36,137 nt of DNA. It comes from Candidatus Thermoplasmatota archaeon (GTDB taxonomy: Archaea; Thermoplasmatota; Thermoplasmata; RBG-16-68-12; JAGMCJ01). Both the position numbers and the translations under genes were made by a program. The stretch is from assembly GCA_022848865.1 (NCBI GenBank), contig JAJISE010000018.1:1-36137 (forward strand), written 5' to 3'. Shown here piece by piece: positions 16,647-29,349 of the stretch (its first letter is position 1; each line of letters starts with the position of its first letter). The notes beneath the pieces are model-generated. The model did not search any database and was not told where the DNA came from. It saw only the letters and a program-made list of their open reading frames with translations.

Positions 16647-16853
16647 ATGAAGGTCCACGTCGAACTGCTACCTTCGGGGGAGAGGAAGACGATGAAGTTC
16701 CCGGACGAGGCCAGCGGATTCGATGTCGTCCGCGCGCTTGACCTGAAGCCGGATGCGCACATCCTGGTCAGGGACGGCAGCCCGGTCCCGATGGATGTCG
16801 TCCTGAGCAACGGTGACAGGGTCAAGCTCATCAAGGTCGCGTCTGGCGGGTGA
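16647..16853 (+). CDS. Ubiquitin-like small archaeal modifier protein (MoaD/ThiS family)
   Basis: 68 residues: a beta-grasp domain in the usual order ending in the diagnostic C-terminal Gly-Gly (IKVASGG). The ATG at 16647 follows an AT-rich element (AAAAGCTATTAGG) by about 25-35 bases, so the message may be leaderless. Such proteins are adenylated at the C-terminal glycine by an E1-like enzyme (UbaA/MoeB type). They then either donate sulfur (molybdopterin, thiamine or tRNA thiolation) or are conjugated to lysines as SAMP modifiers. No E1-like gene lies in the window. Without it I cannot tell SAMP2/Urm1-like from ThiS/MoaD. Confidence 0.85.
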   Translation: MKVHVELLPSGERKTMKFPDEASGFDVVRALDLKPDAHILVRDGSPVPMDVVLSNGDRVKLIKVASGG

Positions 16854-24828: not shown

Positions 24829-24940
24829 GTTTCTGTTTCCCGCCAGACCTCCAGTCGTTATCGCGTCTCCGACTTCTCGCCCGCGGGGAACATCGTTAAG
24901 GTTATTATTCTCGATACGCATTGGGTGTTTGGTTGATTCC

Positions 24941-25654
24941 ATGAGTGAACGAATCAAGACGTTTATCGGCGGCCTCGATGAGAGGATGGAAGGCGGGATA
25001 CCGGACAAGTACCTCACGCTCGTATGCGGACGGGCAGGGACGATGAAATCAAGCATCGCTTTCAACATCCTCTACCACAACGCCAAGGAGAACGGGCTCA
25101 GGGGCGTCTACATCACGCTCGAGCAGAACCGCAAGAGCCTCGTGGAGAGCATGGTCCGGATAGGGATGGACCCGCGGAAGATCACGGGGAAGGGCGGCAT
25201 AGTCGTCGTGGACATGGCCCGCCTCCGCAAGGAGCTCGAGGACCAGGGCAAGCAGGCCGAGATAAACTGGCCGCAGTCGATCATCACGACGGTGAACAAC
25301 TACAAGATGAAGTACGGCTGCAACCTGTTCGTGCTCGACTCGCTCGCAGCGCTGTACTCCATCACCGACTTCAAGACGCCAAGGAGCGACGTCTTCATGT
25401 TCTTCGACAGGATCAGGGACCTGGACGTGACAACCTTCCTCGTCTCGGAGATGCTCGACCCGGACAAGCAGCTCTTTGGCCAGTACGGCGTCGAGGATTT
25501 CCTTGCGGACGGCATCTTCCATCTGGACATGCAGAGGGACGAGAGGAACGTGAACCTCTTCCTGAGCGTCGTGAAGATGAGGATGACCAAGCACGACAGG
25601 GCGTACTATCCCGTCATCGTTGACAAGGAAGGCTTTGAGATAGTCACGCAGTAG
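24941..25654 (+). CDS. RAD55/KaiC-like RecA-superfamily ATPase
   Basis: 237 residues from the ATG at 24941; an in-frame TTG at 24929 is possible. A TTATTATTC element about 35 bases upstream fits a leaderless message. It is a single RecA-type domain: Walker A GRAGTMKSS near residue 34, the KaiC-like catalytic glutamate in YITLEQ near 61, and Walker B LFVLDSLAALY. It lacks a second KaiC domain and any DNA-binding extension, so it is the single-domain archaeal form often linked to signalling. It stops 5 bases before ubiX and is certainly cotranscribed with it. The biological role is unknown. Confidence 0.9.
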   Translation: MSERIKTFIGGLDERMEGGIPDKYLTLVCGRAGTMKSSIAFNILYHNAKENGLRGVYITLEQNRKSLVESMVRIGMDPRKITGKGGIVVVDMARLRKELEDQGKQAEINWPQSIITTVNNYKMKYGCNLFVLDSLAALYSITDFKTPRSDVFMFFDRIRDLDVTTFLVSEMLDPDKQLFGQYGVEDFLADGIFHLDMQRDERNVNLFLSVVKMRMTKHDRAYYPVIVDKEGFEIVTQ

Positions 25655-25659
25655 CTCTC

Positions 25660-26202
25660 ATGAGGATAATCATCGCCGTCACGGGCGCATCCGGCATGCC
25701 GTACGCCACGACCCTTCTGAGGGAGCTCGACGCCGAGAAGCACCTCATAGTCTCCGAGAACGCCGTCAAGGTCATCGAGCGGGAGTCCGACATCGGCCTG
25801 GATGGGATGAGAGCCCTGGCGGATCACGTGCACGACCCCGCCGACATGACGGCCCCCATGGCCTCCGGCAGCGCGAGGTTCGATGCGATGGTCATCGTCC
25901 CCTGCTCCATGTCCACCCTCTCGAAGATAGCGTGCGGGATCGCCGACAACCTGATATGCAGGACCGCCCAGGTGTTCCTCAAGGAGAGGAGGAGGCTCGT
26001 TCTCGTTCCCCGCGAGACGCCGCTGAGCTCGATCCACCTGGAGAACATGAAGAGGCTCTCGGACTGCGGTGCCACCGTCCTGGCAGCGATGCCCGCATTC
26101 TACACGAGGCCGTCAACGGTGGCGGACATGGTGAACTTCGTCGTCGGCAGGATTCTTGACAGTCTCGGCGTCGAGCACTCGCTCTGCGAACCGTGGGAAT
26201 GA
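25660..26202 (+). CDS. ubiX: Flavin prenyltransferase UbiX
   Basis: 180 residues. UbiX attaches a dimethylallyl group to FMN, making the prenylated cofactor used by UbiD-type decarboxylases. Motifs seen: the N-terminal IIIAVTGASGMPYA, VIVPCSMSTLSKIACGIADNL for flavin binding, LVLVPRETPLSSIHLENM, and AMPAFYTRPSTVADMVNFVVGRILD. The length is slightly short but complete. No UbiD partner lies in the window. It follows the RAD55-like ATPase by 5 bases and converges on the RING-like membrane gene. Confidence 0.95.
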   Translation: MRIIIAVTGASGMPYATTLLRELDAEKHLIVSENAVKVIERESDIGLDGMRALADHVHDPADMTAPMASGSARFDAMVIVPCSMSTLSKIACGIADNLICRTAQVFLKERRRLVLVPRETPLSSIHLENMKRLSDCGATVLAAMPAFYTRPSTVADMVNFVVGRILDSLGVEHSLCEPWE

Positions 26203-26217
26203 AAAAGGGGACCGCGT

Positions 26218-28527
26218 CTAAGGACCTGTGACGTCCTCCACCCTGTCGAACTCCTTCTTCAGCATCGACAGCTGGTCCTGTGCCAACGACAGCGGGGTTA
26301 TGGGGACGACCAGAGTCGCGTCGTTGATCGAGCAGAGGTCGTTCACCTTCTTTATGAACTTGAGCGAAACCTCGAACCCGTTCTCCACAGCGAGGTACTC
26401 CAGGCCGTCCAGGAGTATCACGCCGCCCTCGGACTTCTTCACGAAGTTGCTTATGGCCCTCATTATCTCGAAGTCCAGCCTCTTCGGGTCAAGGGTCTGG
26501 AAATCCGAGCTCGTGTCCGTCAGCCAGTACAGCTCGACGTTCTCGATCGGTATCTCCCTCTTCAGCTTCTCCGGGTAGGTCGTCGAGATGATCAGCCCCG
26601 CCAGGTTCTTCTTCATCAGGCTGTTGAACTGCTCGTACGCCACCGTCGGCGTGTCGCCCACCACTAGGTGGTTGTAGCCCGGCTCCACGACCTTGAGTGC
26701 CGAACCGCAGTTCTCGCACATCGTCCTCATCAGGTCGGCGCCCTCCTCGATGAGGACCACCTCGGAACAGGAGCTGCACTTCGCCGTGGTCATCTTCTTC
26801 TCCTCTTCCTCGTCGACCTCCAGGTCGTTCCCGCACGCCGGGCAAGTGGCCACCTTCGTGGCGCAGCTCTTGTGGTAGATCTGCCCGCACTTGCAGCGGA
26901 CGGCCTCCCTGAGGCTCGTGATCTCGTCCATGCAGACCGTGCACGCCAGGGTCGAGTGGACCGGCGGCGGTGGCGGCGCCTCCGGCTCGCTGACGGCCGC
27001 TCCCTCCACAGTGATGTGTATGTCCTCTTCCTCCACGGCTGGCGGTATCATCATCGTCTTCCTGTCGTACATCACCTTCGTCATGACGACCATCGCTACG
27101 AAGGTCGCGATAGTGAAGATCCACATGAACAACCCCGTGAGGTATACCCCAGCGCCGACGAAGACGAGGAGGGAGGGGAAGAAATAGAAGATGATGTAGA
27201 GCAGGACGAAGACCTTGCCGAGGATGTGGAGCCACTTGATCTTGACAGCTCCCGCCCGATAGCGCCTCGGGTGCGCCATCTTGAAGACCATGTATGACTT
27301 GTTCTGGGCCGACAGCATGGCGTAGGTCAGGATGAAGATGAGTATGAACAGGATCTGCGGGTTCTCGAAGACGTCGAAGTCGACGAAGACGGTCTTGTCC
27401 TGGCCGCTGGCGGCGTAGTCGAAGTCCGACGTGTACGAGAGGATCATCCCGCCAGGCGTGCGGATGATGTGCACGGTCCCCTTGTTCGCGGCCACGTCTT
27501 GGAAGCTCGTGAGGCCGAGCAGGTAGTCCGTGTGGTGCATCTCAATGCTGCCCTCGTATGTGCTCGGCGCAATGACGGCGAGGTCGTTGAGTCTGAAGCC
27601 CTCCGCGTTATTGACGGAATCAGACTTGAAGAGCAATCTGAGGAAGAACTCCGTTCCCGCGTGGTCCTCTGTCAGGTCGAGGCTCACAGGGATCCAGCTG
27701 GATGTGCCATTGGAAACCGACAGGTTGTATATCTCGTTCCAGTTCACACCGTCCACGCTCGTGAGGAAGGCAAGGTAGTCTCCTCCGTTGGCGACGTTTC
27801 CAGTGTAGCTGAAATTGAGGATGCATTCGGTCGAGGAATTCAATCGGAGGTACTCGGAGTCCATGACCATCCTCGTGTCGTTCTCGTACATCCATGTCGT
27901 CACATTGCCAGCGTAGAGCGTTCCCCCGGGGTTGGGCCACGGGAAGTACAAGTACGGTCCCAATACCGTCTCGAAATCGGTCGTCAGGTTGACTGAGAAC
28001 ACGTCATAGAACGCTCGGGCGATCGCTATCTCGTCCTGAACGTAGGTCCTCCTGGCCTGGTTGGTCTCCATGGTGAACCTGTGCGTGATGCTGAGGCTCC
28101 CCGTCGTGCTCGCGTCCGAGCCCACGAGCCCGCTCGAGCTTTGCTGCACTCCCGGTTCCGAGTTCCCCTCATCCAGGGTCACCTCCTTGATGCGTCCGTA
28201 TCTGTAGTCGGTGCCGTACGCCCCCGAGGGCGGTCTCTCCAGGTAGTCCTGGACGTCTTGCGAGTAAGCGAAGGCCTCGTCCACCTCGATCACTCCGTCA
28301 CCGTCATCATAGCGGTAGAGTATCTTCTCCCTGAGGTCGAGGGCCTCGGCGCCAACCGCCGTGAAGTAGATGTGCCCTCCACCAGAGAGGCCCGTGGTCC
28401 CGATCATCTCCACGTCCGTGGTCACGATGATGCGGTTCCCCTGGGCGGAAACGACGCTGAGGAAGAGTGAGACAAGAAGGGTCAGGAATACAACAATGCA
28501 GAAGTGCTGGAGAGCGTGGCGGTCCAT
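26218..28527 (-). CDS. Membrane protein with extracellular domain, RING-like zinc finger, zinc ribbon and DUF835
   Basis: 769 residues from the ATG at 28527; a far longer open frame continues upstream but only as antisense to the TrmB gene, and a TATA box at 28552-28560 fits this start. The order is signal peptide; extracellular beta-rich region (about 25-375) with several Asn glycosylation-like sites; membrane helices at about 385-500; a proline-rich linker; a RING-like finger from residue 529 (Cx2C, 12 residues, CxC, x4, H, x2, C, x6, Cx2C); a zinc ribbon (CSSC...CENC) at about 586-612; and a C-terminal DUF835 domain (about 617-769). The cytoplasmic half therefore combines two zinc modules with DUF835, common in Thermoplasmatota and probably regulatory. 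Its ligand and output are unknown. It is divergent from a TrmB regulator. Confidence 0.88.
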   Translation of the reverse strand: MDRHALQHFCIVVFLTLLVSLFLSVVSAQGNRIIVTTDVEMIGTTGLSGGGHIYFTAVGAEALDLREKILYRYDDGDGVIEVDEAFAYSQDVQDYLERPPSGAYGTDYRYGRIKEVTLDEGNSEPGVQQSSSGLVGSDASTTGSLSITHRFTMETNQARRTYVQDEIAIARAFYDVFSVNLTTDFETVLGPYLYFPWPNPGGTLYAGNVTTWMYENDTRMVMDSEYLRLNSSTECILNFSYTGNVANGGDYLAFLTSVDGVNWNEIYNLSVSNGTSSWIPVSLDLTEDHAGTEFFLRLLFKSDSVNNAEGFRLNDLAVIAPSTYEGSIEMHHTDYLLGLTSFQDVAANKGTVHIIRTPGGMILSYTSDFDYAASGQDKTVFVDFDVFENPQILFILIFILTYAMLSAQNKSYMVFKMAHPRRYRAGAVKIKWLHILGKVFVLLYIIFYFFPSLLVFVGAGVYLTGLFMWIFTIATFVAMVVMTKVMYDRKTMMIPPAVEEEDIHITVEGAAVSEPEAPPPPPVHSTLACTVCMDEITSLREAVRCKCGQIYHKSCATKVATCPACGNDLEVDEEEEKKMTTAKCSSCSEVVLIEEGADLMRTMCENCGSALKVVEPGYNHLVVGDTPTVAYEQFNSLMKKNLAGLIISTTYPEKLKREIPIENVELYWLTDTSSDFQTLDPKRLDFEIMRAISNFVKKSEGGVILLDGLEYLAVENGFEVSLKFIKKVNDLCSINDATLVVPITPLSLAQDQLSMLKKEFDRVEDVTGP

Positions 28528-28551
28528 CTCAATCACGAAATAAGTGCCAGA

Positions 28552-28560
28552 GATAAATAG
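28552..28560 (-). promoter_or_regulatory. TATA box of the RING-like/DUF835 membrane protein gene
   Basis: The minus strand reads GGAAACTATTTATC around these bases, 25 bases before the ATG at 28527, as expected for a leaderless or very short leader message. Confidence 0.6.
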
Positions 28561-28584
28561 TTTCCTGAGCCGATATCGCTTCAA

Positions 28585-28598
28585 TGAAAAGCTTTTCA
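28585..28598. promoter_or_regulatory. 14-bp perfect palindrome in the divergent promoter region
   Basis: TGAAAAGCTTTTCA is a perfect inverted repeat centred 20 bases before the TrmB start and upstream of the TATA box of the divergent membrane gene. Its position over the likely core promoter of the TrmB gene suggests a transcription factor site, perhaps autoregulatory. Binding is not shown. Confidence 0.5.
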
Positions 28599-28611: not shown

Positions 28612-29349
28612 ATGTCCGTCGGGAGCATGGAAGTCGGTGACGTTGACCTGATGGAGGAGTACGACAAGATAGTCGGCGTGCTCCATACGCTGGGCCTCTC
28701 CAATTACGAGGCGAGGGTCTACATAGCTCTCGTCGCACACGGATTCGGCGATGCCGAGACGATCGCGGGCACCGCCAGGATCCCCCGGACCTCGTCCTAC
28801 AAGGCGCTCCAGTCGCTCTGCTCGAAGGGGTTCGCCTTCTCCACGTCCGGAAGGCCGTCCGTCTACAAGCCGGAACTTCCCGAGAGGATGAAGAAGAAGA
28901 TACTCGGCGAGGTGTCCGACGCCTTCGACAAGCTGAGCCTGGTGCACGAGATCGCACGCGACAAGGGCGAGCCTCAGCTGGTCTTCACGATCACAGGCAA
29001 GAGCAGGGTCATCGACAAGATCGGCGAGCTCGTGGACAAGTCCTCCGAGAAGTTCGTCGTCGCCACCCCGACGTTCTCCGAGATAAGGGAGGCTCACATG
29101 AAGAGGCTGGAGGCGGCGATCCGAAGGGGGATCAGGGTGATCGTCATCACGGAGCCTGGGCAGAAGGTGCCCGAGGGCGCCGAGGTCCACTTCCGGAAGG
29201 GGCTGATCGCCACGGACATCATCGTGGACGGTAGCGAGGCCCTCCTCGCGAGCCCGGACCTGAACGCCTGCGGGTTCACGGACAATCCCTATCTCGCGAG
29301 GCATCTGGAGGACTTCCTCTCCATAATGATATCACACGGGCGGGAATGA
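28612..29349 (+). CDS. TrmB-family transcriptional regulator
   Basis: 245 residues. The N-terminal winged helix (about 18-90: YDKIVGVLHTLGLSNYEARVYIAL, then RIPRTSSYKALQSLCSKGF) is the TrmB DNA-binding domain. A coiled linker follows, then a C-terminal domain (about 125-240) with a phospholipase-D-like fold (FVVATPTFSEIREAHMKRLE...IDIIVDGSEALLASPD region) but no sugar-binding domain, as in the short TrmB group. The ATG at 28612 is the first in frame; 28624 is possible. The stop overlaps an ATG of the reductase gene by four bases. The palindrome at 28585-28598 may be its operator. Confidence 0.92.
   Translation: MSVGSMEVGDVDLMEEYDKIVGVLHTLGLSNYEARVYIALVAHGFGDAETIAGTARIPRTSSYKALQSLCSKGFAFSTSGRPSVYKPELPERMKKKILGEVSDAFDKLSLVHEIARDKGEPQLVFTITGKSRVIDKIGELVDKSSEKFVVATPTFSEIREAHMKRLEAAIRRGIRVIVITEPGQKVPEGAEVHFRKGLIATDIIVDGSEALLASPDLNACGFTDNPYLARHLEDFLSIMISHGRE

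Follow-up and report, generated by a model that had tools for sequence, protein, structure and literature searches.

Architecture of the receptor-like protein

Our analysis covered a window of 36,137 nt (the whole stretch of DNA examined), whose minus strand encodes a 769-aa membrane protein with a RING finger, a zinc ribbon and a DUF835 domain (26218..28527, stop included; the Met start lies at 28527 and the stop codon ends at 26218). An earlier note had set the upper coordinate at 28598; no in-frame start is found there, and the residue numbering of that note fits the start at 28527. The protein begins with a signal/anchor helix (residues 9-28, 28444..28503, by hydropathy; AlphaFold2 places the helix at 3-22), followed by an exported beta-rich ectodomain (residues 30-385, 27373..28440), a transmembrane helix (residues 390-411, 27295..27360) and two more such helices (residues 431-490, 27058..27237), which are seen both in the hydropathy profile and in the AlphaFold2 model. 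A Pro/Glu-rich linker separates the membrane helices from the RING finger (residues 529-565, 26833..26943), a member of the Prok-RING_1 type according to profiles, ligand conservation and Foldseek. The zinc ribbon, with its four Cys ligands (residues 584-607, 26707..26778), and DUF835 (residues 631-760, 26248..26637) complete the tail.

The full-length AlphaFold2 model has a pLDDT of 82 and a pTM of 0.54, and agrees with hydropathy on the signal helix, the beta-rich ectodomain and a tail on the cytoplasmic side. The ectodomain is modelled as a jelly roll that resembles MAM, reelin and CBM4 domains in structure comparison, and weak matches to the InhA-like_MAM family occur in two orthologues. 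DUF835 scores far above its Pfam cut-off (E 8.8e-27, 94 bits vs 33.1), and comparison of its predicted structure points to the fold of FlaH and KaiC. The receptor-like layout proposed in the earlier note is thus backed by Pfam, hydropathy and AlphaFold2. A similar arrangement of signal peptide, ectodomain, membrane helix and cytoplasmic RING is known from the eukaryotic PA-TM-RING ligases. The likeness to these or to the ZNRF3/RNF43 ligases is one of layout only, however, since the archaeal ectodomain is unrelated and the protein has three membrane helices and a DUF835 tail. DUF835 has been described as an inactivated KaiC domain of archaeal signal-transduction proteins (PMC5847659), and the present protein shares with these the use of DUF835 as an inactive KaiC output domain, but is a membrane receptor in which the RING and ribbon take the place of REC and PAS domains. 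DUF835 is strongly expanded in the source genome, where it is found in 14 places.

Identity and predicted fold of the finger

The RING ligands follow the order C529-x2-C532-x12-C545-x1-C547-x4-H552-x2-C555-x6-C562-x2-C565, and those of the ribbon are C584, C587, C604 and C607. Among 32 relatives, some with as little as about 27% identity, neither the eight RING ligands nor the four of the ribbon vary, which argues against a chance pattern; in a wider orthologue set, C545 is lost in one protein (L165). The finger is recognised by zf-RING_2 (E 8.8e-5 for the whole protein; 30.2 bits on the 45-aa core vs a cut-off of 27.3). Its Prok-RING_1 score (16.1-21.9 bits) lies under the Pfam cut-off of 29.1, as do those of most orthologues, because the third ligand pair is CxC rather than CxxC. 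The orthologue L039, which has the full CxxC pair, reaches 38.0 bits, and the finger is therefore assigned to Prok-RING_1 by homology and not by its own score. It shares with this family (Pfam PF14446) the binuclear Cys/His order and a CG-x3-4-YH-x2-C core, and differs in its setting, placed behind membrane helices and followed by a ribbon and DUF835. Judged by these sequence features, it is a Prok-RING_1 finger shortened by one residue and not a RING-CH. The C4HC3 pattern from residue 529, the ribbon and DUF835 were correctly recognised in the earlier note, while the closeness to the RING-CH order that it saw is superficial and results from the deleted residue. RING-CH (MARCH) fingers have the spacing CxC-x7-HxxC. 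We rejected membership in that family on the spacing found here, CxC-x4-HxxC-x6-CxxC, and on the absence of a profile fit; no RING-CH family appears among the Pfam matches of the whole protein at E up to 1.

The finger is predicted to adopt a cross-braced, binuclear treble-clef RING fold (pLDDT 85-89 over the RING). Foldseek pairs the RING-ribbon model with RNF125, SIAH1, RNF165 and RNF12 at a probability near 1, although with modest E-values because the domain is small. Some Pfam ribbon models weakly overlap the region, as would be expected if the cysteines formed two ordinary rubredoxin-like ribbons without a cross-braced RING. We consider this very improbable, given that the SIAH1 RING superimposes at 1.6 A over 43 columns, that the majority of the confident structural matches are RINGs, that the finger profile finds the RING E3s EL5, ARK2C and RNF165 among PDB sequences (E 1.6e-5 to 1e-4), and that L039 exceeds the Prok-RING_1 cut-off. 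The structure prediction, a check suggested earlier, and the ligand conservation in homologues both favour a RING.

The likeness to the eukaryotic RING-H2 E3s RNF125, SIAH1, RNF165 and EL5 extends to the predicted cross-brace and the profile, and in RNF125 also to a zinc finger after the RING. Unlike these enzymes, the archaeal finger has a shorter C6-C7 helix, no Trp and no linchpin Arg. Only six residues lie between C555 and C562, there is no Trp in the E2-binding helix (CATKVATC), and G566 follows C565 where a linchpin Arg/Lys would stand; an Arg at this position is seen only in some orthologues of family f4, which lack an E2. In the one archaeal cascade that has been reconstituted, residues I30, W58 and R69 of the Caldiarchaeum RING protein srfp matter (PMC5654768). 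Of these, the receptor finger has only the equivalent of I30, the hydrophobic V531 at the E2-contact site flanked by C529 and C532, and so is without two of the three residues needed by that ligase. In srfp, too, the third and fourth ligands are shifted (PMC5654768), and its genome likewise holds E1, E2, Ub and JAMM, but srfp is a small, operon-encoded protein.

Orthologues and gene neighbourhood

Orthologues of the receptor are found throughout the order and in several further families of the class; a scan of the genome contigs recovered only seven close relatives. The gene is divergent from that of a TrmB-family regulator (28612..29349, plus strand) and convergent with that of a UbiX flavin prenyltransferase (25660..26202, plus strand), its most widely conserved neighbour, which adjoins it in families f1, f3, f4, f8 and f12. 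Close by lies a gene for a KaiC-family ATPase (24929..25654, plus strand), and a KaiC-type gene is near the receptor gene in f1, f2, f3 and f17. The divergent arrangement with TrmB, already noted at this locus, is conserved throughout the order, being found in 25/25 of its genomes with enough flank. As to whether such RING-DUF835 genes always neighbour TrmB, the association is fixed within the order and not universal: no TrmB was found beside the receptor gene outside it.

Ubiquitin-like machinery in the genome and the class

Within the window, the ubiquitin-like genes amount to one SAMP/ThiS-like ORF with a C-terminal GG (about 16647-16853); this confirms the earlier observation of such a gene, at roughly 9 kb from the receptor gene instead of 10 kb. 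The argument that a ligase role is unsupported because no E1 or E2 lies in the window fails, since the source genome carries on another contig (C3, G000:C3:8000-25000, L070, 7094-9328) a single operon for an E1-like protein, a Ubl ending in PDPEGG, an E2 with HPN and the catalytic Cys, and a JAMM peptidase. A cognate set of E1, E2 and modifier is thus present in this genome; the same gene order is found in most sampled E2-bearing relatives and is repeated in many Thermoplasmata. Prokaryotic operons that combine JAMM with homologues of Ub, E1 and E2 have been reported before (PMC6043591). The E2 of the source genome keeps the loop-4 Pro-aromatic motif (YPY), which is needed for RING contact in the reconstituted archaeal cascade (PMC5654768).

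Nor are RINGs rare in these archaea, as the earlier note had assumed for archaea in general: among 400 Thermoplasmata genomes, 188 have a RING and 121 an E2, with 114 holding both, 7 an E2 only, 74 a RING only and 205 neither. The association (Fisher p 9e-40) ignores shared ancestry and counts all RING proteins, and the absence of an E2 from a MAG can reflect incompleteness, as for the E2 that is missing in G001, of the same genus. Two E2-like proteins of family f12 (L091 and L092) are without the usual catalytic Cys, and no E1, Ubl or JAMM was detected beside them.

Five further RING proteins are encoded in the source genome. They are a small protein with a RING plus several ribbons, encoded on contig C1 (L142 865-1650; also L136-L141, L185 and L186), an oligopeptide (Opp) ABC-transporter ATPase with a C-terminal RING (L147 1495-2718; L149), a clostripain-family peptidase that carries a membrane helix besides its C-terminal RING (L150 1498-3129), a repeat/CARDB protein of about 1500 aa ending in a RING (L152, L135, L145 and L146), present in E2-bearing and E2-less families, and an archaeosortase/exosortase with a C-terminal RING (L153 481-1683; L144, L148, L154 and L193-L195), found in E2-less genomes too. 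In eight of the E2-bearing genomes sampled, the only RING hit is of the RING-plus-ribbons type, mostly with CQIC or CGLC, and where an E2 is present this protein is therefore the leading candidate for an E3, ahead of the receptor.

Retention and loss of the receptor RING

Across genomes, the presence of the receptor RING does not follow that of an E2. The finger is retained with all its ligands in families f3, f4 and f18, in which no E2 is detectable; these holders comprise about 17 f4 orthologues together with those of f3 and f18, in genomes up to 98% complete. When the RING columns are left out, the tree places f3 beside f4, and f18 together with f9, f10 and f12, which suggests about two E2-loss events. 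After one of these, the contact residue changed to H, Q or D (f3 and f4), whereas position 531 is V, I, M or A, and once S, in E2-bearing families. After the other, f9, f10 and f12 lost their RINGs; the E2 that f12 has is catalytically degenerate. Three RING losses can be reconstructed, one in the f9/f10/f12 clade and two in f4 (the genomes of L047 and L048). Each lies in a lineage that lacks an active E2, and none of the sampled lineages with an active E2 has lost the receptor RING. We do not take this confinement as proof, as three events on a tree with 53% of its length E2-less would coincide by chance with a probability of about 0.15. Nor is the hydrophobicity of V531 a proof of E2 use, since in E2-less genomes most RINGs of other architectures have a hydrophobic residue there too. 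The change of the contact residue and the RING losses after the E2 losses are thus suggestive and not significant.

A receptor with a proposed docking tail

We favour, with a probability of about 0.58, the view that the protein is a receptor whose tail of RING, ribbon and inactive KaiC domain serves as a docking platform. The exported jelly roll probably binds a ligand or glycan, and the three membrane helices would tie it to the cytoplasmic platform, which may pass signals on by docking partner proteins. The gene neighbourhood suggests KaiC-type ATPases and the TrmB of the divergent gene as the most plausible partners or outputs. The RING would act here as a protein-interaction module that needs no E2, as is suggested by its retention in E2-less genomes (f3, f4 and f18; 74/188 of the RING genomes). 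The absence of the Trp and of the linchpin from the finger, the nature of DUF835 and its FlaH/KaiC-like fold, the neighbouring TrmB and KaiC genes, and the attachment of RINGs to very different proteins within the same genome also argue for docking. Against it stand the complete E1-Ubl-E2-JAMM operon, the retention of the receptor RING in all sampled E2-bearing lineages with losses only where an active E2 is lacking, and the restriction of the TrmB neighbour to the order. A sensor signalling through its zinc modules, which the earlier note had held as likely as a ligase, remains the best-supported reading.

The alternative with the next best claim, though an unlikely one, is that the protein serves the cell's own ubiquitin-like system as a receptor-type RING E3 anchored in the membrane. 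Its ectodomain would sense a signal while the RING recruits the charged E2, and the tag would go to docked proteins or to membrane proteins close by. The operon with its intact E2, the YPY motif, the predicted fold and the hydrophobic residue at 531, replaced by H, Q or D in f3 and f4, are what one would expect of such a ligase, but the short helix without Trp, the missing linchpin, the persistence of the RING without an E2 and the better candidacy of the RING-plus-ribbons protein are not, and the correlation at position 531 rests on about two loss events and is unspecific. A still more tentative version holds that the receptor is a euryarchaeal transmembrane RING Ubl ligase, one of several membrane-side RING-tailed proteins served by the operon. 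The ligase role is more open than the earlier note held, though it is not established. It is improbable that the RING and ribbon cysteines instead sense metal or oxidative stress and relay it to DUF835 and a partner: the twelve invariant metal ligands would suit such a sensor, and redox-active zinc sites are known in RING-family C1 domains (PMC4999995), but zinc is usually structural, some orthologues dispense with just the RING, and no metal-homeostasis genes are seen immediately beside the receptor gene.

Among archaea, discussion of RING fingers and E2 enzymes usually centres on Caldiarchaeum and the Asgard group. If the receptor were an E3, it would provide signal-controlled membrane ubiquitination outside eukaryotes, and a prokaryotic counterpart of the signal-controlled membrane RING E3s. 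The lineages that keep the RING and lose the E2 offer a natural experiment on the role of archaeal RINGs without ubiquitin transfer, in a class in which these fingers sit on receptors, sortases, proteases and transporters.
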